A DNA stretch of 64,000 nucleotides from Roseateles depolymerans. GTDB taxonomy: Bacteria > Pseudomonadota > Gammaproteobacteria > Burkholderiales > Burkholderiaceae_C. The stretch is from NCBI RefSeq assembly GCF_003387155.1, contig NZ_QUMT01000003.1:956233-1020232 (forward strand). Reading direction: 5' to 3'. The notes under the pieces were generated by a model. That model saw only the letters and a list, made by a program, of their open reading frames with translations, had not been told where the DNA came from and did no database searches. This document shows positions 2,129 through 16,541 of the stretch, piece by piece. How positions within the stretch are numbered: position 1 is the first letter of the stretch; each line of letters opens with the position of its first letter. The position numbers and the translations under genes are program-made.

Positions 2129-2316
2129 GGCGCGCGATGCTAGGGAGGGTTTGTGACAGTTCATGGCGCCGCGACGGCGGGGGGTGCAAACAGCTCACGG
2201 CGGTGGGCTCGATGCGCTGTACGGCAGCGGGCATGGCGTGGATGCCGCACTGTCATGCAAGCGCCATGCGGGGTTCTCACCATCCGGCCCCATTGCTGAC
2301 TCCCGGACTGCCTTCC

Positions 2317-4911
2317 ATGCGTACACCGCCCCGCCCCACCCTGCTGGCCCTGTGCCTCTCCAGCCTCTGGCTGACGCCGGCCTTGGCTCAATCGACAGCG
2401 CCGGCGCAGGCTGCGCCCTCCCCTGCGGCGGCGGCGTCGGCTGCATCGAAGACTGGCGCGAGTGCGAGTGCGGGTGCGAGTGCGGGTGCGACCGCCAGCC
2501 CCCAGAAGCTCGACACCGTGGTCACCGTCGGCCAAGCGGCCGCGCTGCGCTCCGCGCTGGACAAGCAGACCGCCGCCGCCGGCATCGTGAACGTGGTGCA
2601 CGCCGACGGCATCGGCCAACTGCCGGACAACAATGCCGCCGAGGCACTGGCCCGTCTGCCGGGCGTGTCGGTGGAGCGGGACCAGGGCGAAGGTCGATTC
2701 ATCCGCGTGCGCGGCCTGGGGCCGGACTACAACATGGTCACCATCAACGGCGCCGTGGCTCCGGCGTCGCAGTCCGACCGTCGCGCGCCCGGCCTGGACC
2801 TGGTGCCGGCCGGCCTGATCCGCTCGCTGGAAGTGGACAAGACGCTCATGCCCGAACAGGACGCCAACTCCCTGGGCGGTACCGTCACCGTGCGCACGCT
2901 CAGTGCGTTCGACCAGCCGGGGCGGCTGTTCACCCTGGAGGCCGGCGTCAACCACGATGCCAACGCCAGCCAGACGCGCCCGCGCGGCTCGGTGGCCTTT
3001 GCCGACCGCTTTGCCGGCGGCACGCTGGGCCTGGCCGTGGCCCTGTCCGCGGATCAACGCCGCTTCGCCAGTGACAACGTCGAGACCGGCGGCGATTGGT
3101 CCGACGGCAAGCTGGGCAGCTTCGAGCTGCGTCGCTACGAGATCACCCGCGAGCGTCTGGGCGCTGCCCTCAACCTGGATTACCGCCCGGATGCCAACCG
3201 CAGCTTCTACCTGCGCAGTTTCAGCAGCCGCTTCAACGACGAGGAAAACCGCCAGTCGATGAAGGTCGCCTTCAACAGCCCCCAGGCGCCGAGCGAGGTG
3301 GGCGCCGGCACTGTCAGCCGCGGGGTGAAGCAGCGCCGTGAGATCAACAAGTCCTCGGCCGTGGTGCTGGGCACCGAGTGGACGCAGGACGTGTGGAAGG
3401 CCTGGGCCGAAGTGGGCGCCGGCCGTGCCAGCGAGGACAAACCCGACACGCTCAGTTCCTCCGCCTTCACCGCCGACTTCACCGGCCTGGGCTACACCAG
3501 CACCGAACGTCCGATGCCCACCGTGGTCAGCGGGCTGAACGATGCCGGCAAGTACAGCTTCAACAAGGCCAAGATGGAGCAGAGCCACGCCACCGACCGC
3601 GTGCGCCATGCCAAGGTCGATCTGCAGCGTGAGTTCGATGTGGCGGGCTGGGACCTGGACCTGAAGACCGGCCTCAAGGCCACCCGGCGTGACAAGGACA
3701 ACGCCCAGGAAGTGTTCGCCCCCACCGCCAAGCTGCTCAAGAAGGCGCCCTACAACCGGACCTCGGCCCAGTTGAAGATGGGCAATTTCCTCACCGGTGA
3801 GGCGGTGGACTTTCCGTGGACCGATTTCGGCCCCGGCATCGATCCGGGCGCGGTGCGCGGCCTCTATGCGGCTTCGCTGAAGGACTTCCGCGATCCGGTG
3901 GATTCCGAAGTCAACGACTACGCCATGCGCGAGCGCACCGACGCCGGATACCTGCAGGCCAAGCTGGAACAGGGTGGCACGCAGTGGATCGCTGGCGTGC
4001 GCGGCGAGCGGGTGCGTTTCGAGGCGGACGGCAAGTCGTCGGTCGATGACAAGATCGCCCCCACCGCCACCCGCAACAGCACCCACCGCTGGCTGCCGGC
4101 GCTGTTGCTGCGCCAGCAACTGGGCGCCGAGACGGTGCTGCGTGCCGCCGTCACCCATACGATGGTGCGTCCGTCGTTCGACCAGCTCAGCCCCGGTCTC
4201 ACGGTGGATGGCGACGAAGCCACGCTGGGCAATCCGCAGCTCCAGCCGCTGCGCTCCCGCAACCTGGACCTGGGCGTGGAGCGCCGACTCGGCAGAGACG
4301 GCGCGGTGTCGGCCTACGTGTTCCACAAGCAGATCCGGAATTTCGCCTTCCAGACCGACATCGCCGGCACGCCGGGATGGGAAGGCTTCAGCCATGTCGA
4401 GACTTATGCCAATGGCGGCGCGGCCTCGGTGCGGGGGCTGGAACTGTCGTGGAGCCAGGCGCTGACCACGCTGCCTGCGCCGTGGAACGGGCTGGTGCTG
4501 GGCGCCAACGGCAGCTTCGTGCGCTCGCGGGCCAGCATCGGGGCGTATGACGGCGGCGTGTACACCACACGTCGGATCACCCTGCCGAGCCAGTCGGACC
4601 GCAGCATCAACCTGAGCCTGGGCTGGGAATCGCCGGCCTTCGCCGCGCGGCTGGCGCTGAACCACAAGTCGCCGTATCTGCTGGAGGTGGGCGATGTGCT
4701 GGATGCGGCGCAGGACCGCCGTGTGGATACGCAGAACCAGCTGGATGCGTCGATGCGCATCCGTCTGGTCAAGGGTGTGGACCTGAATCTGGAAGCGCTC
4801 AATCTGAGCAACGAGCGCTACTACGTCTACCAGGGCGACAAGGCCCACAACGTGCAGTACGAGCGCTACGGTCGTGCCTACAAGGTCAGCGTGAAGCTGG
4901 CGATGTTCTGA
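2317..4911 (+). CDS. TonB-dependent outer-membrane receptor (phytase-linked)
   Basis: An 864-aa receptor. The start is set by a clear signal peptide beginning MRTPPRPTLLALCLSS and ending PALAQ; the 60 upstream in-frame codons look non-coding. An Ala/Ser/Gly-rich stretch with a 6-bp DNA repeat follows, then a TonB-box-like DTVVTV, a plug domain (LPDNNAAEALARLPGVSVER, FIRVRGLGPDYNMVTINGA) and a long beta-barrel ending in aromatic MF. The plug wording fits the Xanthomonas/Caulobacter-type receptor family (TIGR01782). The phytase gene starts 11 bp downstream with its own ribosome site, so the pair is probably one operon. The receptor may import phytate or its breakdown product. The substrate is inferred from the neighbour only. 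Confidence 0.9.
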   Translation: MRTPPRPTLLALCLSSLWLTPALAQSTAPAQAAPSPAAAASAASKTGASASAGASAGATASPQKLDTVVTVGQAAALRSALDKQTAAAGIVNVVHADGIGQLPDNNAAEALARLPGVSVERDQGEGRFIRVRGLGPDYNMVTINGAVAPASQSDRRAPGLDLVPAGLIRSLEVDKTLMPEQDANSLGGTVTVRTLSAFDQPGRLFTLEAGVNHDANASQTRPRGSVAFADRFAGGTLGLAVALSADQRRFASDNVETGGDWSDGKLGSFELRRYEITRERLGAALNLDYRPDANRSFYLRSFSSRFNDEENRQSMKVAFNSPQAPSEVGAGTVSRGVKQRREINKSSAVVLGTEWTQDVWKAWAEVGAGRASEDKPDTLSSSAFTADFTGLGYTSTERPMPTVVSGLNDAGKYSFNKAKMEQSHATDRVRHAKVDLQREFDVAGWDLDLKTGLKATRRDKDNAQEVFAPTAKLLKKAPYNRTSAQLKMGNFLTGEAVDFPWTDFGPGIDPGAVRGLYAASLKDFRDPVDSEVNDYAMRERTDAGYLQAKLEQGGTQWIAGVRGERVRFEADGKSSVDDKIAPTATRNSTHRWLPALLLRQQLGAETVLRAAVTHTMVRPSFDQLSPGLTVDGDEATLGNPQLQPLRSRNLDLGVERRLGRDGAVSAYVFHKQIRNFAFQTDIAGTPGWEGFSHVETYANGGAASVRGLELSWSQALTTLPAPWNGLVLGANGSFVRSRASIGAYDGGVYTTRRITLPSQSDRSINLSLGWESPAFAARLALNHKSPYLLEVGDVLDAAQDRRVDTQNQLDASMRIRLVKGVDLNLEALNLSNERYYVYQGDKAHNVQYERYGRAYKVSVKLAMF

Positions 4912-4922
4912 AGGAGCCGCCC

Positions 4923-6731
4923 TTGAGCAGGATCACCAAAGTGGGACCTCGGGCAACGGGCCGCAGCTGGGTCGCGTCCGCCGCGCTGGCGGCTTGCCTG
5001 ATGCCATGGACGGCGCAGGCTGCTACAGCGATGCAGGGAGATGGACAGCCGCAAACGCCTTCGCTCGCGAATTCGCAGTCGCAGTCGCAGTCTCGGTCGC
5101 AGTCGCAGTCGCAGTCAGAGCGCCAGTTGCAAACGCCGTTGCAGGCACAGACGCTGGAGCTGGCCAAGTCCGGCCTGCGTCTGCTCGACGCGCAGGGTCA
5201 CGTGCAGGCCGAGCTGCCGATGCGGGCCAAGCGCTGGGACCAGCGCCGCCTGCCTGACGGGCGTACCGTGGCCCTGGTGCAGGACGCGGACAGCGGCGCC
5301 CTGCGGCTGATCGAGGCGCGGCGCGGCCAGCTGGAGGAGCGTCGTCGCTGGGACGGACCCGCCTTCAATCTGGAGGCGCTGTGCCTCTACCTGCCCCCCG
5401 CGCAGCCGCTGCTGCAGGCCTTTGTGCTGGGCGATGACGGTATTGGGGAGCAGTGGCTGGTCGACGAGCAGGGCTTCCCTGACACGTCTGGCACGTCTGG
5501 CACGTCTGGCATGTCCGGTGCGTCTGGTACGTCCGGTGCGTCTGGCGCGGCCCGGTCGCCGGTGATGCGGCGCGTCGCCAGCGTGCCCGATGCCAAGGGC
5601 TGCGCCGTGCGGGATGAGGAAAACCGGCTCTACGTCGCCGAGGCCGGTGTGGGCCTGTGGGCCCAGAGCGCCGATGCCGAGCGGCATGAACGGCGACTGG
5701 TGGCGCCCGGGCTGGCCCCGGCGGACCTGCCGCTGTGGATGTCCGCCCATGCCGCCGAGCGCCCGGCCGCCATCCCGGTCGTGCAGCCCAGCGCCCAGAC
5801 CGTACCCGTGCGCGGCAGCGGCGATGCGGCAGACGACCCGGCCATCTGGGTACATCCGCGCAAGCCGTCGGCCAGTCGCATCCTCGGCACCGACAAGAAG
5901 CTGGGCCTGGGCGTGTATGACCTGCAAGGCCGCGAGACGCAGTTCCTGCCGGTCGGGCGGGTGAACAACGTCGATCTGCGACAGGGTCTTCGTTATGGCA
6001 AGGCCACCTGGGACCTGGCGGTCGCCTCCCAGCGGGACCGCAAGACGGTGGTCGTGTTCCAGATCGATGGCGCCGGGCACCTCACCGCGGCCGCTGAGCT
6101 GCCCACCGGGCTGGACGAGGTCTACGGCATCTGCAGCGGCCGTAATCCTGACGGTGGGCTGGATATCTTCGTCAACGACAAGGATGGACGGGTGCAACAG
6201 CTGCGCTTGCAGCGGCAGGGCAGCCACTGGACCGGTCAGCCGGTGGCGCAGTTCCGGCTGGAGACGCAGCCGGAAGGCTGTGTGGTGGACGAGGCCGGAC
6301 AGCAGCTGTTCATCGGCGAGGAGAAACGTGGGCTCTGGCGCATTGCGCTGGAGTCGGACGGCCGCATGGGCGCGGCGCAGCTGATCCTGCCGGTCGGGGA
6401 CATCCTGACCGCGGATGTGGAGGGCATGGCCGTGCACCGCAGCGCCAAGGGCGCGTGGCTGGTGGTGTCGGCGCAAGGGAGCGACAGCTTCGTCGTGCTG
6501 GACGCGCAGCCGCCGCATGCCGTTCGAGGCCGGTTCCGGGTGGGGCTCAATGCGGCGCTGGGCATCGACGCCGTGTCTGAAACCGATGGGCTGGATGTGA
6601 CGGCGGCCAACCTGGGCGGTCCCTATGGAGAGGGGCTGCTGGTGGTGCAGGACGGCCACAAGCGCTGGCCGCTGGGGCGTCAGAACTTCAAGCTGGTGCC
6701 GTGGACGGAGGTGCTGCGGGTGATGCCCTGA
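4923..6731 (+). CDS. Beta-propeller phytase, two-domain (3-phytase)
   Basis: A 602-aa secreted enzyme that should release phosphate from phytate outside the cytoplasm. The TTG start is supported by AAGGAG six bases upstream. A signal peptide (ending TAQAAT) leads to a Gln/Ser repeat. Residues about 295-602 are a full BPP domain (PF02333), with DAADDPAIWVHP, RILGTDKKLGLGVYDL, VNNVDLR, YGICSGRN and LFIGEEKRGLWRI. Residues about 75-270 look like an incomplete, diverged propeller (LYVAEAGVGLW mirrors the second domain), interrupted by a Thr/Ser/Gly repeat. Two-domain BPP phytases are known in Bacillus and marine bacteria. It is paired with the TonB receptor upstream. Confidence 0.9.
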   Translation: MSRITKVGPRATGRSWVASAALAACLMPWTAQAATAMQGDGQPQTPSLANSQSQSQSRSQSQSQSERQLQTPLQAQTLELAKSGLRLLDAQGHVQAELPMRAKRWDQRRLPDGRTVALVQDADSGALRLIEARRGQLEERRRWDGPAFNLEALCLYLPPAQPLLQAFVLGDDGIGEQWLVDEQGFPDTSGTSGTSGMSGASGTSGASGAARSPVMRRVASVPDAKGCAVRDEENRLYVAEAGVGLWAQSADAERHERRLVAPGLAPADLPLWMSAHAAERPAAIPVVQPSAQTVPVRGSGDAADDPAIWVHPRKPSASRILGTDKKLGLGVYDLQGRETQFLPVGRVNNVDLRQGLRYGKATWDLAVASQRDRKTVVVFQIDGAGHLTAAAELPTGLDEVYGICSGRNPDGGLDIFVNDKDGRVQQLRLQRQGSHWTGQPVAQFRLETQPEGCVVDEAGQQLFIGEEKRGLWRIALESDGRMGAAQLILPVGDILTADVEGMAVHRSAKGAWLVVSAQGSDSFVVLDAQPPHAVRGRFRVGLNAALGIDAVSETDGLDVTAANLGGPYGEGLLVVQDGHKRWPLGRQNFKLVPWTEVLRVMP

Positions 6732-7388: not shown

Positions 7389-7545
7389 CTGAACGACTCC
7401 GGACCGGGACTGCCACGTCCTTGTGCGCAGCTCCCTCTTTGCCGCGCGCAAGGTGAGGGCACGACCTGCCTATAGCAGCCCGTGTCATCCGGCCTCCCTT
7501 GCCACATCTCAAAGTCGTGCCCTCCTTTATCAAAACGGGCTATCG

Positions 7546-7563
7546 GGATGTCACCCGACATCC
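7546..7563. promoter_or_regulatory. Inverted repeat in divergent intergenic region
   Basis: GGATGTC-accc-GACATCC, a perfect 7-bp inverted repeat in the 292-bp space between the degenerate GGDEF gene (minus) and the ECF sigma gene (plus). It has no T-run, so it looks more like an operator or short hairpin than a terminator. No binding protein can be assigned. Confidence 0.35.
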
Positions 7564-7617
7564 GCAGACCACAATTTGCTCAGTGAAAACCCTTGGTTGG
7601 GGGTCAGATTGTGCGCT

Positions 7618-7648
7618 TTGACAGCGAACGGGACCGGTCACATGTAAC
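7618..7648 (+). promoter_or_regulatory. Possible promoter of the sigma factor gene
   Basis: A consensus -35 (TTGACA, 7618-7623) is followed after 19 bp by TGTAAC (7643-7648), a 4/6 match to the -10 box. The spacing is long, so this is a weak call. It lies 33 bp upstream of the chosen ATG. Confidence 0.3.
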
Positions 7649-7680
7649 AGATTCATACAGTGCCGGTAGAGTCCGGGCCC

Positions 7681-8235
7681 ATGACGGAGATCACCCAATT
7701 GCTGCAAGCGGCCAGCCAAGGCGACCGAAAGGCCGCCGACCTGGTCGTGTCCCAGCTCTATGGGGAGTTGCAGCGGCTGGCGCGGCAGCGGATGCGGCTG
7801 TCCGGCAGCGTGACGCTGCTGGACACCACGGCGCTGGTGCATGAAGCGTGGCTGCGGCTGGCGGGGGCGCAGGCCAAGAGCTTTCCGGACCGGCGCCATT
7901 TCCTGGCGTATGCAGCGCGGGTGATGCGCAATGTCGTGATCGACGTGGTGCGCGCACGACGTGCGGAGCGACGGGGCGGCGACCAGCTGGAACTGACGCT
8001 CAATACGGCGGTCATTGAAATGGGGCCGCAATCGGACGACAGCATTCTGCGCATTCATGAAGCGCTGGATGAACTCGCAGAGGTGGAACCCCGGCTGGCC
8101 CAAGTGGTGGAGATGCGCTACTTTGGCGGCTTGCTGGAACAGGAAATCGCCGAGGCATTGGGCGTGACGGAACGCACGGTGCAGCGCGATTGGCAGAAGG
8201 CAAGGCTGTTTCTTTCCATCAGCCTGAAAGATTGA
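7681..8235 (+). CDS. ECF sigma factor, ECF43-like (Sigma70_ECF)
   Basis: A 184-aa sigma factor of the PF07638 type. Region 2 covers the N-terminal half (LLQAASQGDRKAADLVV, TALVHEAWLRL, RHFLAYAARVMRNVVIDVVR) and region 4 the C-terminus (MRYFGGLLEQEIAEALGVTERTVQRDW). The start is the second in-frame ATG, the usual MTEITQLL start for this group. Sigma factors of this group sit next to Ser/Thr kinases, and in Vibrio parahaemolyticus the ECF43 member EcfP works only after phosphorylation by the kinase PknT. Here the kinase gene starts 113 bp downstream. No anti-sigma gene is visible. Direct phosphorylation here is inference. Confidence 0.9.
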   Translation: MTEITQLLQAASQGDRKAADLVVSQLYGELQRLARQRMRLSGSVTLLDTTALVHEAWLRLAGAQAKSFPDRRHFLAYAARVMRNVVIDVVRARRAERRGGDQLELTLNTAVIEMGPQSDDSILRIHEALDELAEVEPRLAQVVEMRYFGGLLEQEIAEALGVTERTVQRDWQKARLFLSISLKD

Positions 8236-8348
8236 GGCTTGCACACTGACGGCATTGCCCAATACAAAAGAAAAGAGGCCCGCGAGAGGCCAATGCACAT
8301 GCGGGAGGCGTCTGAGGAGGCGCCCGATAAGAATCAATCGAGACGCCC

Positions 8349-11039
8349 ATGGACGCTCTGGAAAAAGAACGTTGGATTGCCCTGAGTCCGCTGCTGGATC
8401 AATTGCTGGACCGGGATGAGGAGGATCGCCAGCGCTGGCTGGCGCAATTGCGCGCGCACGATGCTGCGACGGCCGATGAGCTGGAGGCATTGCTGGCCAA
8501 GGACCAGGCGCTGCACGCCAAGGGCTTCATGGCACAGCCGGCAGCAGAGCAGATGGGCGGTGTGGTGACGCCTGTGGGGGAGTCCGTGGCGGAACTGGAC
8601 CTCACCGGGGAATCGATTGGGCCGTATCAGCTGGAGCGCGAAGTCGGCCAGGGCGGCATGGGCGCGGTGTGGCTGGCGCGGAGAGCGGATGGTCGGTTCC
8701 AGGGTGAGGTGGCCATCAAGTTCCTGAAGGCCGGGCTCTTTGGCAAAGGCGACAACGGACGCTTTGCACGGGAAGGCCAGATCCTGGGGCGGCTGTCTCA
8801 TCCGCACATTGCGCGACTGCTGGATGCCGGTGTGCATTCGGGGCACCAGCCTTATCTGGTGCTGGAATATGTGGACGGTCTGCCGATTGACCGCTATTGC
8901 CACGTGCACGGGCTGGACATCGAGGCGCGGATTCGACTCTTTCAGGATGTGCTGGCGGCGGTGGCGCATGCGCATCAGCGGCTGATCCTGCATCGGGACC
9001 TCAAGCCCAGCAACATTCTGGTGACGGCCGATGGACAGGTGAAGCTGTTGGACTTCGGCATTGCCAAGTTGATGGACGATGCCACGCAGCCCGCGGCGGC
9101 CACTGAATTGACGCAACTGGCGGGCAGTGCATTCACACCGCAATACGCGGCGCCGGAGCAGATCCAGCAAGGGGACGTGACCACGGCGACGGATGTGTAT
9201 GCGCTGGGGGTGCTGCTCTACCAATTGCTCGGTGGACGGCATCCGACGGCGGACGACACGCAGACGCATCTGGACCGGCTCAAGGCGGTGGTGGAGCTGG
9301 TGCCCAAGCGGCTGTCCGAAGTGGCCGGTGGGCAACTGGACCCGGTGATTGCGCGCCAGGCCAAGCTGCTCAAGGGCGACCTGGACACCATCGTGGCCAA
9401 GGCGCTGAAGAAGTCTCCGGCGGAGCGGTATGCCAATGCGGAGCAGTTCTCTGCCGACCTGAATCACTGGCTGCAGCATGAGCCGATTACGGCGAGGCCG
9501 GATACGCGGTGGTATGTGCTGGGACGGTTCGTGCGGCGGCACCGGCTGGCGGTGGGGGCGAGCACGGCGGCCGTGTTGGCGCTGGTGGGGTTGACGACCT
9601 TCAGCGTGTTGCAAGCCCACCGGGCCGAGCAGGCGGAGCATCAGGCGCAGCAACGGCGGCAACAGGCGGATGACCTGTTGAGCTTCATGCTGGGGGAGTT
9701 CGCGGACAAGCTAAGGCCGATTGGACGGCTGGAGTTGCTGGACAGTGTGGGGACGAAGGCGCTGTCGTATTTGTCAGCGAATGAAGGACTGAGTCCGCAA
9801 GAGCGGTTGCAGCGGGCGAAGGCGTTGACGGTGCTTGGGGAAGTGCGAGTGGCAAAGCGGGATATGGAGGGCGCGCGCGAGCCTTTGATCGCGGCCCAAG
9901 CGCTATTGCAAGGACCGCCGCCAAGCAAGGAGATGGCAGGGGCTTGGTACAAAGCGCAGGGGGTAGCGGCGTTTTGGGAGGGGCATTCGTATTTCACAAA
10001 GCGCCAGTTTGAAAAGGCACAAGGTCCGCTGGAGCGATATGCAAGTTTTAGCAAGGCTTGGCTAGATGCCCAACCGGACAGTGAAGAAGCGTTGACAGAG
10101 TTGGCTTATGCAGAAAACAGCCTGGGTTCCCTTCGCCTCGAGAACACCGACTTTGATGGGGCGGTCCGCAGCTTCACGGCCTCCATTGCGATCAAGCGAA
10201 AGGTGATTGCCAACAGCACGCCAGAAAGAGCATTGGCACTTAAGGCTGAACTGGCTGACAGCATGAGTTGGCTTGGAACCACTTGGGCACGAAAAGGCAA
10301 CGCGCACGAAGCGCTCCAAGCATTTATCAACGCAATTGCGTTGCTCGAGGAAGTAAGAAGTAGTCAACCAAAAAGCGGAATCTTGGCATATCAGTTGGCA
10401 GCGATGCATCGATCTGCCGCACAGACGGCCCTCAGGTTGAGTGAGCTGGAACTGGCCACACAGCATATAGACGAAGCCGTCCGACTGATGGATGCGCTGC
10501 ATGCGCAAGACCCTTCAAACATGAACTGGCGCATCAATCTTTTGATAACTCGCTCACTGCAGCTTGAATACCGGCGAGACGTCGCTTCATCAGCAAACCG
10601 ATTAGAGCCATGGGAAGCTATTGCAGCGGAATGGTTAGAGATTGAGAAGACGTCCAGAGCCAAGGCGTCTCCCGTGGCGATGTCAGAGCGTTACCAATCA
10701 GAACGAGGCTACGCAAAAGCGCTTGCCGCGGCGGGCCGATTTAATGAGTCTGCAGCGGTGTTCGAACGCATCCTGTCGGGCTTCAGCGACAAGCTCATTG
10801 TCCAGAAGGACTTTGTTCTTCTGCTGATTTACGTTGACACGTCTGTCGCGGCGTTGCAGCTTCTCCCTGAAGCCGAAGGATTCCGACTTAAACGACATCT
10901 GCTGTGCAGCCACTTGGCAGATGAAATTGCAAAGATGCCCCAATTCATTGGCGTTAATCCGACAATCACTAAGGGTTGGGATACTGCCCAATCATGCTTG
11001 GGAGTGAAGTCTCAAGCAGTGGGGAACCGATCTTCCTAA
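8349..11039 (+). CDS. Membrane Ser/Thr protein kinase with TPR-like C-terminal region
   Basis: An 896-aa Hanks-type kinase. The kinase domain is roughly residues 92-375, with the glycine loop VGQGGMGAVW, Lys124 in VAIKF, the catalytic HRDLKPSN (Asp217) and LDFG (Asp235), all intact. A single membrane span lies near residues 400-421 (GASTAAVLALVGLTTFSVL). The following about 470 residues are helical and TPR-like, and should be periplasmic if the kinase is cytoplasmic. The N-terminal 80 residues resemble the leader found in sigma-linked kinases. Base composition falls in the last third compared with the kinase domain. The upstream sigma factor is its likely substrate. The C-terminal region may be the sensor. 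Confidence 0.88.
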   Translation: MDALEKERWIALSPLLDQLLDRDEEDRQRWLAQLRAHDAATADELEALLAKDQALHAKGFMAQPAAEQMGGVVTPVGESVAELDLTGESIGPYQLEREVGQGGMGAVWLARRADGRFQGEVAIKFLKAGLFGKGDNGRFAREGQILGRLSHPHIARLLDAGVHSGHQPYLVLEYVDGLPIDRYCHVHGLDIEARIRLFQDVLAAVAHAHQRLILHRDLKPSNILVTADGQVKLLDFGIAKLMDDATQPAAATELTQLAGSAFTPQYAAPEQIQQGDVTTATDVYALGVLLYQLLGGRHPTADDTQTHLDRLKAVVELVPKRLSEVAGGQLDPVIARQAKLLKGDLDTIVAKALKKSPAERYANAEQFSADLNHWLQHEPITARPDTRWYVLGRFVRRHRLAVGASTAAVLALVGLTTFSVLQAHRAEQAEHQAQQRRQQADDLLSFMLGEFADKLRPIGRLELLDSVGTKALSYLSANEGLSPQERLQRAKALTVLGEVRVAKRDMEGAREPLIAAQALLQGPPPSKEMAGAWYKAQGVAAFWEGHSYFTKRQFEKAQGPLERYASFSKAWLDAQPDSEEALTELAYAENSLGSLRLENTDFDGAVRSFTASIAIKRKVIANSTPERALALKAELADSMSWLGTTWARKGNAHEALQAFINAIALLEEVRSSQPKSGILAYQLAAMHRSAAQTALRLSELELATQHIDEAVRLMDALHAQDPSNMNWRINLLITRSLQLEYRRDVASSANRLEPWEAIAAEWLEIEKTSRAKASPVAMSERYQSERGYAKALAAAGRFNESAAVFERILSGFSDKLIVQKDFVLLLIYVDTSVAALQLLPEAEGFRLKRHLLCSHLADEIAKMPQFIGVNPTITKGWDTAQSCLGVKSQAVGNRSS

Positions 11040-11065
11040 TGACACATCCACGAGAGAGGAAAACC

Positions 11066-11473
11066 ATGACATCAGAATTTTTTGTGCGTGCCACCCCAAG
11101 CGCAGACGGTAACTTTGCCGAGTGCACCTACTTCAATGACAAGGACGCTACCAGTCCGCACCCGAGCTCAACCTTCAATGTGCTGAAGACTGCTGGTCAA
11201 TGCACCTTCACCGAGGCAAACGGTTCCGACCTGACACTCATCGGTGCGACTTTCAGCACGCTGGGCGGGACACCTGGCATGAACAGCGGGAACTTTTGTC
11301 CGGCCGACGGTAACCACTCAGTGCAGGTCAGCATGCCAACGAACTTCATCTGCACGAAGGGCGTCGTGCTGCTCTTTTCGAATCCCAATGTTGTGGATAA
11401 CATCTATCCGAGTAGCGATCCACAAATCCTCAACGACAGCGTTCTGCCCCCAATGAACGGAGTGACTGGTTGA
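11066..11473 (+). CDS. 135-aa protein ending in the same motif as the adjacent peptides
   Basis: No family recognised. The ATG at 11066 follows GAGAGAGG with good spacing; another ATG at 11039 overlaps the kinase stop (TAATG) and would add nine residues. The protein has no signal peptide or membrane segment, and holds four cysteines (ECTYF, QCTFT, FCPAD, ICTKG) in a probable beta-rich domain. Its last 18 residues are DPQILNDSVLPPMNGVTG, which match the core of the neighbouring double-glycine peptides (compare PQITNDSFQPPS) but without a GG leader. It lies between the kinase and the peptide array, in AT-richer DNA. It may be a partner, carrier or ancestor of the peptides. Function unknown. Confidence 0.75.
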   Translation: MTSEFFVRATPSADGNFAECTYFNDKDATSPHPSSTFNVLKTAGQCTFTEANGSDLTLIGATFSTLGGTPGMNSGNFCPADGNHSVQVSMPTNFICTKGVVLLFSNPNVVDNIYPSSDPQILNDSVLPPMNGVTG

Positions 11474-11507
11474 AAGACTAGAAAAGTCATCGCCTCAGCT
11501 CAACGGT

Positions 11508-11551
11508 CGGATCTCATTGCAAGATCGATGGACTCTGATGAATGAGATCCG
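11508..11551 (+). promoter_or_regulatory. Perfect 11-bp inverted repeat upstream of peptide array
   Basis: CGGATCTCATT (11508-11518) and AATGAGATCCG (11541-11551) are perfect reverse complements separated by 22 bp. They sit 42 bp upstream of the first peptide gene. This could be an operator or an mRNA hairpin between the 135-aa gene and the array. There is no T-run, so a simple terminator is less likely. Confidence 0.5.
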
Positions 11552-11592
11552 CGCGACCGGTTTCACCGATTAAGGATTCAATAGACCCACCT

Positions 11593-11730
11593 ATGACGCA
11601 AGAGACCTTACAACATCAATCGCCAGCCCACTTATCTGACCAAGAAGCAGAGGTCACCCAGCTGAGCTTGGAAGATCTTGAGGCCGTCTCGGGTGGTCCA
11701 CAAATCACTAACGACGGCTTCCAGCCGTAG
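11593..11730 (+). CDS. Double-glycine-leader peptide 1
   Basis: A 45-aa precursor (MTQETLQHQSPAHL...) with an acidic leader ending LSLEDLEAVSGG, the standard double-glycine leader for peptidase-C39 exporters. The predicted mature part is PQITNDGFQP, ten residues. Its first twelve residues are close to those of peptide 4 (MKQETIQHDSPA), showing duplication. The ribosome site is weak. It is the first of six related genes before a C39 ABC exporter. Antimicrobial or signalling roles are both possible; the short core favours signalling. Confidence 0.85.
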   Translation: MTQETLQHQSPAHLSDQEAEVTQLSLEDLEAVSGGPQITNDGFQP

Positions 11731-11774
11731 ACCTGAAATCTTCAGTCTTTTCATTGCAGAATTGAGGAAGCAAA

Positions 11775-11906
11775 GTGAATCAAGACCTGCCTCTCAACCC
11801 TGAAATTCTCTCGGACTCGCTAGATTCCGAGCTGATTGATTTGTCATTGATTGAACTGGAGGCTGTTGCAGGCGGGCCGCAGCTGACCAATGACGGCATC
11901 ATCTGA
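11775..11906 (+). CDS. Double-glycine-leader peptide 2
   Basis: A 43-aa precursor with a GTG start preceded by GAGGAAG at good spacing. The leader ends LSLIELEAVAGG; the predicted mature part is PQLTNDGII, nine residues, the shortest of the set. The beginning MNQDLPLN resembles that of peptide 5 (MNQLPEHD). It is too short to be found by length-limited gene callers. Same expected fate as peptide 1. Confidence 0.85.
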   Translation: MNQDLPLNPEILSDSLDSELIDLSLIELEAVAGGPQLTNDGII

Positions 11907-11918
11907 GCGGAGACCTGT

Positions 11919-12065
11919 ATGCGCGAATACCAGGAACACGAGATTCAGGAATCCGAATCCCACCCTGCTCCCGATCCGACCCCGCGAGTGCTCTGCCTGG
12001 ATGAGCTGACCGAAGTTGCTGGCGGCCCACAGATCACGAATGATGGCATCACGCCGCCGGCCTGA
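11919..12065 (+). CDS. Double-glycine-leader peptide 3
   Basis: A 48-aa precursor starting MREYQEHEIQ 12 bp after peptide 2, behind GCGGAG. The leader is rich in Glu and Pro and ends LCLDELTEVAGG; it carries the only cysteine in the six leaders. The predicted mature part is PQITNDGITPPA, 12 residues. Close packing with peptide 2 indicates a shared transcript. Confidence 0.85.
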   Translation: MREYQEHEIQESESHPAPDPTPRVLCLDELTEVAGGPQITNDGITPPA

Positions 12066-12169
12066 GTTTTCACCCACGCCACCTCGCCTGCCATCGATAG
12101 GATGCGAGTGTCCGGATGCACTGATGAGGTGGCTTTCGCATGATCAGATTGATTCGACAGGGAGACCTT

Positions 12170-12313
12170 ATGAAGCAAGAGACCATACAACACGACTCGC
12201 CTGCCGCCGTTTCTGACCCAGATGCGGTAGTCGTCGAGCTGAGCCTGGAGGACATTGCGTCCGTCTCGGGAGGCCCGCAGATTACAAACGACAGCTTTCA
12301 GCCTCCGAGCTGA
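12170..12313 (+). CDS. Double-glycine-leader peptide 4
   Basis: A 47-aa precursor behind a strong AGGGAG site. The leader ends LSLEDIASVSGG; the predicted mature part is PQITNDSFQPPS, 12 residues. It has Ser in place of Gly after ND, like the C-terminus of the 135-aa protein upstream. The N-terminus is a near copy of peptide 1, at DNA level as well, so the two arose by duplication. Confidence 0.85.
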   Translation: MKQETIQHDSPAAVSDPDAVVVELSLEDIASVSGGPQITNDSFQPPS

Positions 12314-12374
12314 AAGCTTCGTGCCAAAGTTACCCCAAACTCGCAAGACAACTTCGATTGAGAACGTGAGTCAA

Positions 12375-12518
12375 ATGAATCAACTACCCGAACACGACCA
12401 GGCAACACTGTCGCCACCGGCACCCGAATCAGCGATGGTTGAACTCTCTCCGGCTGATCTGTCCTCCGTTGCAGGCGGCCCGCAAATCGCGAACGATGGT
12501 CCAAACGCACCGGGCTGA
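12375..12518 (+). CDS. Double-glycine-leader peptide 5
   Basis: A 47-aa precursor, MNQLPEHDQATL..., leader ending LSPADLSSVAGG, predicted mature part PQIANDGPNAPG. The ATG at 12375 is chosen by alignment with peptide 2; an in-frame GTG at 12366 is possible. This copy is the most diverged in the core (Ala for Thr, Pro after Gly). Confidence 0.82.
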   Translation: MNQLPEHDQATLSPPAPESAMVELSPADLSSVAGGPQIANDGPNAPG

Positions 12519-12667
12519 CGGCTCCGTTTGTTCGTTGCGGCCAAATGGTTCGCACGGGGAGCCGGTTGATCGCATCGGTAGGAACCCCGACTATCGAACC
12601 GATCGGGCAGATTGACGTTCGGAGGTTCGGGGACGCACACTCTCAAATCAACTTATAGGGAGCACGT

Positions 12668-12820
12668 ATGACTATCGACGCGGTAGAACATCCTCTGCCA
12701 GAAACCATTTCCGATGAGGACACGGTCATCATCGAGCTGAGCTTGGAAGACATTGCGTCTATCGCTGGTGGCCCGCAGGTTACAAACGACGGGATCATGC
12801 CCCCCCTCCTAAGCGACTGA
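12668..12820 (+). CDS. Double-glycine-leader peptide 6
   Basis: A 50-aa precursor behind AGGGAG. The leader ends LSLEDIASIAGG; the predicted mature part is PQVTNDGIMPPLLSD, 15 residues, the longest. A 149-bp gap separates it from peptide 5, and a strong terminator follows it, so it closes the array. The leader LSLEDIAS is shared with peptide 4. Confidence 0.85.
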   Translation: MTIDAVEHPLPETISDEDTVIIELSLEDIASIAGGPQVTNDGIMPPLLSD

Positions 12821-12926
12821 AGCGGGACGAAACTCCAACCGCTGGCCGGTCAACGACTGTCCGCATCACGGACCTGTTCGGTCTCGCGACCGGTTAGCCG
12901 CTCCAGCTGCGCAACATCCCCTTCCC

Positions 12927-12953
12927 AAGGGTCGCGTTTGTCGCGACCCTTTT
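12927..12953 (+). terminator. Rho-independent terminator after the peptide array
   Basis: A perfect 10-bp stem, AAGGGTCGCG and CGCGACCCTT, with the 5-nt loop TTTGT, followed by TTCC. It lies between peptide 6 and the exporter gene, so peptides and exporter are either separate transcripts or linked only by partial read-through. Confidence 0.75.
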
Positions 12954-13006
12954 CCGTTTAAATCCCCCCCAGCCCCGCCCTCCCCGCACAACCCAAGAGA
13001 CCGCTG

Positions 13007-15289
13007 TTGAATCCCTTTGATTGGATGCGTGGCAGGCGAGCGCTGCCGATGTTTCATCAGTCCGAAGTCGCGGAATGCGGCCTGGCGTCGTTCGCCATGA
13101 TCGCCGCCTATCACGGCCACAAGGTCGATCTCAACGGCCTTCGCCAGCGCTACGCCCTCTCCCTCAAAGGCGCCACCATGGCCGACATCGTCAAGATGGC
13201 CGACGGCCTGGACTTCGCCTGCCGCCCCTTGCGTCTGGAGCCCGAGCATCTCGACAAACTCCAGCTCCCTTGCATCCTGCACTGGGACATGAACCACTTC
13301 GTCGTGCTGCGCGAACTGCGCGGCGACGTCGCCATCATTCACGACCCCGCCCTTGGCATCCGCGAAATCTCCCCGCGCCAGATGTCCAAGAGCTTCAGCG
13401 GCGTCGCCCTGGAGCTCACGCCCACCAACCACTTCAAGCCCGTCGAAGTCCGCATCCGCGCCCGCATGCGGGACCTGTGGACCCGGGTGCGCGGCTGGCG
13501 TGGTCCGCTGCTGCAGACGCTGGTGCTCTCCATCATGCTGCAGCTGTTTGCAATGGCCGCCCCGGCCTTCCTGCAGCTGGCCATGGACGACGCGGTCTCC
13601 CGCATGGACCAGCACTTCCTCCTCATCCTGGCCATTGGCTTCGGTGTGATGTATGGGCTGCAGGCCCTCACCGAAGCCCTGCGCAGCTTCACCGTGCTGC
13701 AGCTCGGCCAGGCCATGAGCTTCCAGCTCACCGGCAATGTGCTGCGCCACCTGCTGCGCCTGCCCGCGGAGTTCTTCGAAAAACGCATCGTCGGCGACAT
13801 CCTCTCCCGCATGGGCGCCATCCGGCCCATCCAGGAAGCGCTCACCCAGTCCGTGGTCACCGCCTCCATCGATGGCGTGATGACCCTCGCCACCGCCGCC
13901 CTGCTCCTCATCTACAGCCCCGCCCTGGGCGGCGTGGTGCTGGTCTCCATGTTGCTGTATGTCGTGGTGGTACTGAGCCTGTATCCGCTGCGGCGTCAGC
14001 GGGAGGAAGAACAGCTCATTGCCCAGGCTGAAGCACAGACCTACCTGATCGAATCCATCCGCGCCTCCAAGACCGTCAAGCTGTATGGCCGCGAGGCCCA
14101 GCGCGAGATGGTCTGGCGCAATCACTTCGCCAATGTCGTCAACGCCACGCTGGGCAGCGGCAAGGTGGAAGTCGGCACCACCTTCGCCCGCAGCCTGCTG
14201 TTCAATCTGCAATTGGTGGTCATCGTCTATCTCGGCGCGCAGCGCGTCATGACGAATGAACTCAGCGCCGGCATGCTGTTCGCCATCCTGCTCTATCGCA
14301 ATCAATTCGGCGAACGTGCCGAGGCGCTGGTGCGGCAGATGGTCCAGTTCCGGTTGCTTCGTCTGCACATGGAACGTCTGGCCGACATCGTCACCACCCC
14401 GCGCGAAACCGGCCTGGACGCCGCTGCCTCCCTGCCCGAGCGCGACGTGCGCGGCGCATTGAGCCTGCGCAACGTCTCCTTCCGCTACGCGCAGAACGAG
14501 CCGATGCTGCTGCAGGACATCACGCTGGACATTGACCCGGGCGATTACGTCGCCATCGTCGGCAGCTCCGGCGGCGGCAAGACCACGCTGCTGAAACTGA
14601 TGCTCAGCCTGCTGCCGCCCACCCAGGGCGAGATCCTGGTGGACGGCATGCCGATGCAGTCCTTCGGCATCCAGGCCTGGCGCCGCGCCATCGGCGTGGT
14701 GCAGCAGGACGACGGACTGCTGATGGGCACCATCGCCGACAACATCGCCTTCTTCGATCCGCAGCTGGACATGGCCCGCGTCGTGGAAAGCGCCCAGGCC
14801 GCCGCCGTGCATGACGAGATCCAGGCGATGCCCATGGGCTATCTCAGCATGGTGGGCGACATGGGCAGCACCCTCTCTGGCGGTCAGCGCCAGCGGGTGC
14901 TGCTGGCGCGCGCGCTGTATCGGCGGCCGTCGGTGCTATTCCTGGATGAGGGCACCGCCAACCTCGACCCGCAGGCCGAGCGACGCATTGCCGACCTGGT
15001 GCAGGACATGCCCATCACCCGCATCGTCGTGGCCCACCGGCCGGAGCTGGTGGACCGCGCCACGCGGGTGTTCGAGCTCAGCCGCGGGCGCTTGATCGAG
15101 CGGAAAGGGCCAGGGGTTCCGGCGGTGTCCTCGGAAGAGGAGACGAGGGCCGCGGACCCAGCCAAGCAGGCGCCAGATCACTCCGCCGGCGCCGGATCCA
15201 GAAATGCGTCGAGTGCTGGCTTGAATGCGGGCTCCGGCGACGACAGCTCCGCCGGCTCCAGCCCGCGCGCGTCGAGCGAGGCCGTCTGA
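13007..15289 (+). CDS. Peptidase-C39 ABC exporter (RaxB/CvaB type)
   Basis: A 760-aa bifunctional transporter that should cut precursors after GG and export the product. The peptidase domain (residues about 14-125) keeps Gln18, catalytic Cys24 (VAECGLAS), His97 (MNHFVV) and Asp113 (IHDPA). The membrane domain follows (about 150-440). The ATPase domain has Walker A GSSGGGKTT, signature LSGGQRQR and Walker B LFLDEGTANLD. The last 60 residues are a Ser/Ala/Gly-rich tail not usual in the family. The TTG start is preceded by AAGAGA; the ATG at codon 7 is the alternative. It lies just after six GG-leader peptides and 1 bp before its HlyD partner. Confidence 0.93.
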   Translation: MNPFDWMRGRRALPMFHQSEVAECGLASFAMIAAYHGHKVDLNGLRQRYALSLKGATMADIVKMADGLDFACRPLRLEPEHLDKLQLPCILHWDMNHFVVLRELRGDVAIIHDPALGIREISPRQMSKSFSGVALELTPTNHFKPVEVRIRARMRDLWTRVRGWRGPLLQTLVLSIMLQLFAMAAPAFLQLAMDDAVSRMDQHFLLILAIGFGVMYGLQALTEALRSFTVLQLGQAMSFQLTGNVLRHLLRLPAEFFEKRIVGDILSRMGAIRPIQEALTQSVVTASIDGVMTLATAALLLIYSPALGGVVLVSMLLYVVVVLSLYPLRRQREEEQLIAQAEAQTYLIESIRASKTVKLYGREAQREMVWRNHFANVVNATLGSGKVEVGTTFARSLLFNLQLVVIVYLGAQRVMTNELSAGMLFAILLYRNQFGERAEALVRQMVQFRLLRLHMERLADIVTTPRETGLDAAASLPERDVRGALSLRNVSFRYAQNEPMLLQDITLDIDPGDYVAIVGSSGGGKTTLLKLMLSLLPPTQGEILVDGMPMQSFGIQAWRRAIGVVQQDDGLLMGTIADNIAFFDPQLDMARVVESAQAAAVHDEIQAMPMGYLSMVGDMGSTLSGGQRQRVLLARALYRRPSVLFLDEGTANLDPQAERRIADLVQDMPITRIVVAHRPELVDRATRVFELSRGRLIERKGPGVPAVSSEEETRAADPAKQAPDHSAGAGSRNASSAGLNAGSGDDSSAGSSPRASSEAV

Positions 15290-15290
15290 C

Positions 15291-16541
15291 ATGAGCACCA
15301 AATCCCTGTTCCGAAAAGAGGCCATCGAGCATCGCGGTCAGCGGCTGCTGGGAGAGGTCCTCCTGCAAGTGCCGGCCGGTGCCCGCTGGGTGACCGCCAC
15401 CGTGGTGCTGGTCTTCGTGCTGGTGGTGGGGTTCCTGTTCTTCGGCACCTATGCACGGCGGGAGACCGTCACCGGCTGGCTGCGTCCCGAAGGCGGCGTC
15501 ATCCGCGTGGAGGCGCAGGTGGACGGCGTGGTGGAACAGCTCCAGGCGGTCGAGGGCGACCGCATCAATCGGGGCGCCCCCATCGCCACTCTGCGGCTGG
15601 ATGGCGAGCTGGAACAGGGCCAGAGCCTGTCCACCCGCCTCATCGCCGGGCTGAATCGCGAGCGACAGCAGCTGGAGCAGCAGCGCGACGCCATCCGCGC
15701 CCGTTATCAGCAGCGCGAGGCGCGGCTGCAGGAGGAGATCCGCAGCCTGGAAGCGGAGCTCATCCAGTACCGGCGTCAGATCGAGAACCTGGACCGCCGC
15801 GCCGCCCTGGCGCAGCGGCAGGTGCAGGACCAGGCGGACCTGGCCCGACAGGGCTATCTCTCCCGTCGCGATGCCGACAAGCTGGAAGATGCGGTGCTGT
15901 CCATCACCGAAAGCCGCGAGTCGGTGCGGCAGGACATGCTGGCGCGAGACACCACCCTGCGCAACACCCGGCATGAGCTCAGCAGTGTCGGCACCGAGCG
16001 GGATGCCGCGCTGGCGGAAGTCGGCGAGAAGCTCGCGGCGCTGACGCAGCGGGACGCCGAGGCCGTGCGGCGCGGTCGCGTGCAACTGGTCGCGCCGATT
16101 GATGCCCGCGTCGGCAACGTGCGGGTGGAACCGGGGGCGTCGGTGCGGGCCGGCACCCTCGTGGCGGACCTGTTGCCGGTGCAGGGGCCGCTGCGGGTGG
16201 AGCTGTTTGCGCCCAGCCGCGCCATCGGTTTCGTGAAGGCGGGGGACGAGGTCCGCCTCCGGTTCGACGCCTTTCCGTATCAAAAATTCGGCATTGGCCG
16301 GGGGCGCGTGATCAGCGTGTCCCGCTCCGCGGTCGATCCGCGGGAGCTGCCGATGGGCCAGCAGGCCAGCGGCCCGGTGTACCGCGTGCTGGTCAGCCTG
16401 GACGAAGGCGCGCCCGGGCTGGAAGGCCGCGCCGATGCGCTGCGGGCCGGCATGACGCTGCAGGCGGACTTGGTGCTGGAGGAGCGGCGCATCGTGGAAT
16501 ACCTCTTCTCCCCGGTGCTGGGTCTGGCGAAGAACGGGTGA
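15291..16541 (+). CDS. HlyD-family membrane fusion protein (RaxA/CvaA type)
   Basis: A 416-aa periplasmic adaptor that should link the inner-membrane exporter to an outer-membrane channel. It has one N-terminal membrane span (VTATVVLVFVLVVGFLFFGT), a lipoyl half (GVVEQLQAVEGDRINRG), a long coiled coil (about 120-260) and the second lipoyl/beta-barrel part (VQLVAPIDARVGNV, VKAGDEVRLRFDAFPYQKFG). The start one base after the exporter stop shows an operon. No TolC-like gene is nearby, so an outer-membrane channel encoded elsewhere is presumably used. Confidence 0.9.
   Translation: MSTKSLFRKEAIEHRGQRLLGEVLLQVPAGARWVTATVVLVFVLVVGFLFFGTYARRETVTGWLRPEGGVIRVEAQVDGVVEQLQAVEGDRINRGAPIATLRLDGELEQGQSLSTRLIAGLNRERQQLEQQRDAIRARYQQREARLQEEIRSLEAELIQYRRQIENLDRRAALAQRQVQDQADLARQGYLSRRDADKLEDAVLSITESRESVRQDMLARDTTLRNTRHELSSVGTERDAALAEVGEKLAALTQRDAEAVRRGRVQLVAPIDARVGNVRVEPGASVRAGTLVADLLPVQGPLRVELFAPSRAIGFVKAGDEVRLRFDAFPYQKFGIGRGRVISVSRSAVDPRELPMGQQASGPVYRVLVSLDEGAPGLEGRADALRAGMTLQADLVLEERRIVEYLFSPVLGLAKNG

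Follow-up and report, generated by a model that had tools for sequence, protein, structure and literature searches.

Short double-glycine peptides of Roseateles depolymerans resemble the tail of a putative self-cleaving DP-EP-type protein encoded behind a TPR receptor kinase

The window analysed here is a stretch of 64,000 nucleotides from Roseateles depolymerans (NCBI RefSeq assembly GCF_003387155.1, contig NZ_QUMT01000003.1, positions 956,233 to 1,020,232), in which six small genes for double-glycine (GG) peptides lie between the gene of a 135-residue DP-EP-type protein and that of an ABC exporter with a C39 peptidase domain. That the cores of these peptides mimic the C-terminal tail of the DP-EP-type protein is well supported by sequence comparison. 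It is proposed, with a probability of roughly 55%, that the peptides, once exported, imitate the DP-EP-type fragment and target the outer TPR (tetratricopeptide repeat) domain of the kinase encoded upstream, which would in turn drive the adjacent ECF (extracytoplasmic function) sigma factor.

All six open reading frames (ORFs) of the array were found in the window ORF listing on the + strand, with 43–50 codons each, spanning 11593–12820: peptide 1 (11593..11730, 45 aa, core PQITNDGFQP), peptide 2 (11775..11906, 43 aa, GTG start, core PQLTNDGII), peptide 3 (11919..12065, 48 aa, core PQITNDGITPPA), peptide 4 (12170..12313, 47 aa, core PQITNDSFQPPS), peptide 5 (12375..12518, 47 aa, core PQIANDGPNAPG) and peptide 6 (12668..12820, 50 aa, core PQVTNDGIMPPLLSD). 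Each consists of a double-glycine leader and a core of 9–15 residues beginning PQ[ILV][TA]ND[GS], and G34, G35, P36, Q37, N40 and D41 were identical across the alignment of all six. The ORFs look like real genes, since changes among the GGPQxxND codons fall mostly on third positions and a purine-rich stretch was seen by eye 5' of the start codon in four of the six. ORFs, leaders and cores were thus as a sequence-only reading of this DNA had described them, including the Pro directly after GG in every copy. The same reading had called the family unrecognised; this stood to the extent that no named GG family was reached (no Pfam or NCBIfam cut-off was attained by the six peptides in profile scans), but not for the core, which is the tail of a separate protein encoded upstream. 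A terminator-like hairpin of 10 pairs with a T-rich tail (12927..12951, + strand) stands between array and exporter; eight terminator-like sites were found in 7400–13100 against 5.1 expected in shuffled sequence.

The DP-EP-type protein is encoded 120 bases upstream of the array (11066..11473, + strand) and is predicted to be a beta-sandwich that cleaves itself between Asp118 and Pro119. It has neither a GG leader nor a hydrophobic segment; it ends in NIYPSSDPQILNDSVLPPMNGVTG, the last 17 residues being shaped like a peptide core, and its C-terminus reads YPSSD followed by PQILNDSVLPPMNGVTG, the same peptide form as the cores. Among 50 non-overlapping window ORFs of at least 100 aa, taken from stop to stop, it matched the cores best at its C-terminus (27 versus 21 for the next). 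At 15 related loci the pattern P[QE]h.N[DE] fell within the last 30 residues of 7 of 207 ORFs (six DP-EP-type proteins and one GG peptide), a count from which overlap filtering had removed other copies beforehand. The protein is present in 16/16 genomes of the genus, with the same ECF and kinase genes ahead of its own in the window and at 15/15 other loci; named records among these 16 loci are from Roseateles, Mitsuaria, Pelomonas and Rubrivivax. The tail is among its most conserved stretches, with Y114, S116, D118, P119, Q120 and N123 invariant in all 16, and the fragments after the Asp-Pro bond measure 7–19 residues (16 genomes), the terminal GG cores 8–23 residues (30 cores). Tails ending in Cys (e.g. 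PQVINDQPTC) were seen in genomes without the exporter (L026, L027, L030, L031 and L032).

A cut between D118 and P119 would leave PQILND..., and a C39 cut after GG would leave PQITND...; the constant Pro after GG would then be accounted for, because both cuts release a peptide starting Pro-Gln. Protection from aminopeptidases had been suggested as its purpose, and copying of the Asp-Pro self-cleavage fragment appears to explain it better. The shared stretch comprises only about 6–9 residues, as would fit a likeness due to chance or to a trivial short motif; with the upstream protein ranking first among the 50 window ORFs and a second pairing of different sequence at hand, such an origin is scarcely credible.

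This second pairing emerged when the peptide profile matched GG genes at other places in three genomes, among them that of the window; there the extra genes adjoin a second protein of the same design. In the window's own genome (second contig, L129:6357–7363) a second DP-EP-type gene with the tail TTDPEVGNGSSN (PEVGNGSSN after the Asp) is accompanied by a GG peptide of its own, encoded on the other strand, with the junction GGPEVEGSSSN; L130 combines the tail ADPEVGNGSSN with GGPEVEGGSSN, and L128 the tail TTDPEVEAGSSS with GGPEVGNTSSN and GGPEVGSGSSN. A C-terminal SSN was present in 4/4 of these type-2 cores and in 0/37 type-1 cores, a comparison of related sequences that gives no strict probability and that again speaks against chance. 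Core and tail therefore differ together between the two systems. The receptor of this second, paralogous system at L129 is a DNA-binding nSTAND-TPR protein, and no C39 exporter match was found on that contig.

The predicted cleavage rests on comparison with SO1698 of Shewanella oneidensis, an Asp-Pro self-cleaving protein of the Pfam family DP-EP (PF08985, formerly DUF1888): among its solved chains the wild type stops at Asp116, and the D37A, S114A, D116A and P117A mutants do not. The model of the 135-residue protein matches SO1698 as a beta-sandwich, both carry SxDPQ at the C-terminus, and Ser114, Asp116 and Pro117 of SO1698 correspond to S116, D118 and P119, kept in 16/16 orthologues; a Lys before the last long strand lines up by eye with Lys98. 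Pfam DP-EP genes, too, stand behind a TPR receptor (6/6 loci). SO1698 and its family differ from the window protein in that Asp37, as aligned by eye, does not appear to be conserved in window-type proteins and in that no leader-borne tail copies were found at the six Pfam DP-EP loci. PF08985 matched 2/16 orthologues of the window protein (best E 0.0083), and profiles of the window family gave no match to Pfam DP-EP proteins at E 10. By modelled fold and by motif the window protein would be a DP-EP relative and not a Pfam member, and it is probably of the self-cutting kind. Among seven Pfam DP-EP copies one seemingly has a signal peptide (L150:8200–8730, where a second DP-EP gene precedes it).

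The same models allow the peptides a different partner: they might bind the DP-EP-type beta-sandwich as a replacement last strand, by donor-strand exchange or in the place of the displaced cut tail, and not the TPR domain. In the model, PQILND of the tail forms a strand (residues 120–125), the uncut SO1698 mutants align with the model through residue 123–124, and SO1698 is reportedly self-assembling, according to the title of Osipiuk's 2012 article. Strand replacement is nevertheless considered unlikely: it leaves unexplained why the DP-EP-type gene directly follows that of a receptor with a membrane-helix-TPR part at 41/41 other loci tested, and why an exporter is used when most DP-EP-type proteins seen are without a signal peptide.

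The exporter gene (13007..15289, + strand, TTG start as listed) matched PF03412, PF00664 and PF00005 above their cut-offs (Peptidase_C39 113.6 bits, cut-off 22), and the C39 Cys, His and Asp that had been reported for it were located in ECGLA (Cys24), NHFVV (His97) and IHDP (Asp113). The peptides thus share with C39-exported peptides a GG leader beside an exporter with all three catalytic residues, and cleavage after GG with secretion would be expected. A gene for a HlyD-type adaptor follows (15291..16541, + strand, PF13437 E 1.1e-16), and such a gene adjoins the exporter at 7/7 other exporter loci. Exporter orthologues of 81–94% identity were found in 7/15 other genomes of the genus, which with the window makes exactly 8/16, in single copy and always at this locus; in the other eight genomes the best matches were paralogues of at most 46% located elsewhere.

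Comparable GG-peptide arrays were found in related genomes, and core-bearing GG peptides were present at 7/8 exporter loci versus 0/8 exporter-less loci (Fisher p 0.0014, the genomes being related and the value no strict probability); exporter and peptides changed together in 4/4 independent pairs on the kinase tree. Together with the anatomy of the genes, this co-occurrence backs the earlier suggestion of pheromone-sized exporter products. Whole-genome searches of the exporter-less genomes gave only weak peptide-profile matches ending at GG (positions up to 35–36 of 44), which in the two genomes inspected were ordinary Gly-rich GG genes. The seven loci hold 38 cores, 37 found by pattern plus PQVINDAPV of L029, which was left out of the Fisher tests on cores; pattern matches in unrelated frames (L029 11957, L030 1351, L137 11521) were excluded from the counts. 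Pro follows GG in all 38, of which 34 start PQ and four PE. Tandem precursors with 2–4 GG-core units each occur in G009 and G004. Another genus (L074) has a GG core PQVNNNDE behind a DP-EP-type gene with the tail DPEVKNDDT; the rest of that family set, 17 type-1 loci and two type-2 loci, yielded no GG core, and the exporter paralogue of the L074 genome reaches 46% only. A GG peptide encoded opposite the DP-EP-type gene, on the other strand, at L033:9429 and L034:9071 has the core PEVTNSVG, unlike the adjacent tails.

Conservation of the tail in the 8/16 genomes without exporter would fit a folding role, so PQxxND might merely be a structural or sorting motif: the precursors might remain untrimmed at GG, or the tail might be a signal at the C-terminus, and a free peptide would have no role. 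The double-glycine form of the leaders, the intact catalytic triad of the exporter and the leader-like stretch that the tandem precursors, by eye, repeat before every GG make this quite improbable. Small bacteriocins of the class II microcin kind would also have GG leaders and a C39 exporter with HlyD, and the best NCBIfam scores of the peptides, although below threshold, were for a CTB bacteriocin model (16.1 bits, cut-off 32) and a bacteriocin-signal model (12.7 bits, cut-off 15.7). Class II microcin cores are long and often Gly-rich; the window cores are not long, the cores of 8–23 residues repeat the tail sequence of a protein encoded next to them, three inspected GG genes of the genus with long Gly-rich bodies have Ile or Trp after GG, and no immunity gene was recognised between the 135-residue protein and the exporter, where no systematic search was made. 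A bacteriocin function is accordingly rated as highly improbable. Long Gly-rich GG genes that are ordinary class II microcin-like candidates were seen in sister genomes (L131:4338–4637, L132:6250–6504, L133:5532–5933).

The putative receptor is a membrane Ser/Thr kinase (8349..11039, + strand) with a kinase domain at about 93–362 (Pkinase PF00069 E 3.6e-44; HRDLKPSN, DFG and APE all present), a hydrophobic segment at 400–418 and a TPR solenoid at about 443–896, inside the modelled helices of which lies a second hydrophobic segment (822–840). The TPR domain would lie outside the inner membrane, since segment 400–418 separates it from the kinase, as for PknS. Its model (pLDDT, the predicted local distance difference test, 90.6) has a TPR fold resembling that of the peptide receptors RapI and NprR. 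The partner ECF sigma factor, which we take to be probably of the ECF43 type, is encoded upstream (7660..8235, + strand, Sigma70_ECF PF07638 E 3.6e-46) and at 15/15 other genus loci. Outputs of DP-EP-linked receptors are a Ser/Thr kinase or a DNA-binding nSTAND domain, and TIR in distant relatives. TIR-helix-TPR receptors were found in distant Pseudomonadota (L163–L168), in 5/6 followed by an ORF with a DP motif in its tail; these are possibly defence or signalling receptors. A TonB-type receptor and a phytase-like protein, named by eye, are encoded upstream of the ECF gene (window 2137–6731), and the pair recurs at 15/15 other loci of the genus; at one of them the receptor match is confined to 31 residues at the edge.

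In the proposed mechanism the DP-EP-type protein would cut itself at Asp118-Pro119 and leave PQILND..., while the neighbouring C39 exporter would trim the precursors after GG and export PQxxND...; the free peptide would bind the outer TPR domain, and the kinase would phosphorylate the adjacent ECF sigma factor, by analogy with PknS and EcfK. The peptide should act outside, because a dedicated exporter is used, and the array would place in the surroundings the same signal that the DP-EP-type protein otherwise makes, for cell-cell signalling or for tuning of the receptor. Several points weigh against this proposal. Cleavage, export and receptor binding are steps that we infer. The weak point is the route of the fragment to an outer TPR domain, the DP-EP-type protein having, by eye, no signal peptide; lysis or an acid environment might set it free, but this is speculation. 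The window protein itself lies below Pfam detection, with no match to any Pfam model, PF08985 included; SO1698 needs Asp37, and the aligned position 36 is, by eye, Glu in 5/16 orthologues and never Asp, with Asp at the equivalent place in 1/6 Pfam-level relatives. As the tail is modelled as a strand, folding may be what conserves PQxxND. Peptide genes are absent from one genome with the exporter (L021, G015), and the sign test for co-occurrence gives p 0.125. The second protein is without a GG peptide at 8/11 loci of the genus, and likewise at L081. The top fold matches of the TPR domain are to LGN and not to pheromone receptors, and a shared fold proves no function.

A wider generalisation is offered tentatively, and we would not bet on it at even odds: Pseudomonadota may have a general module for outer peptides, in which periplasmic-TPR receptors with interchangeable outputs are paired with self-cutting DP-EP-type proteins whose Pro-started tail is the ligand, and some relatives of Roseateles may have made this tail an exported pheromone by joining it to double-glycine leaders, in one to four copies per gene.

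Among known systems, ComC-type pheromones and class II microcins share with the array a GG leader and a peptidase-containing ABC exporter, as, reportedly, do the cyanobacterial biofilm peptides and HetC. The window differs from C39-exported GG peptides in that the core duplicates a neighbouring protein's tail, in that Pro follows GG in every copy seen here, and in its tandem precursors with up to four cores. The receptors of the RRNPP family (Rap, NprR, PlcR) reside in the cytosol, and their peptides are secreted by Sec and then re-imported; the window kinase is in contrast no soluble cytosolic receptor, a membrane helix separating its TPR part from the kinase part, and the window peptides have GG leaders. 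A close counterpart on the receptor side is PknS-EcfK of Xanthomonas citri, where an ECF sigma gene likewise neighbours that of a membrane Ser/Thr kinase whose TPR repeats are periplasmic; PknS is reported to phosphorylate EcfK directly, activation through its periplasmic region was left to future study, and the excerpted text mentions neither a DP-EP-type protein nor a GG peptide (PMC13147305). In the titles and abstract openings covered of the open-licence literature, no such system was found among GG pheromones of Gram-negatives or ECF43 receptors, priority being unproven; one paper found under PF08985, DP-EP or DUF1888 uses SO1698 as a mere tool. The parts are relatives of known kinds; what appears new is their arrangement, in which leader-borne peptides for export copy the tail that a receptor's partner would cut from itself. 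The locus gives a concrete, synthesisable candidate ligand for the periplasmic TPR region of ECF-coupled receptor kinases and may also explain why DP-EP self-cleaving proteins exist. If the proposal is true, two unrelated cuts, Asp-Pro self-cleavage and C39 leader cleavage, converge on one peptide, and signalling by short peptides exists in Gram-negative bacteria in a form that is RRNPP-like but acts outside the inner membrane.

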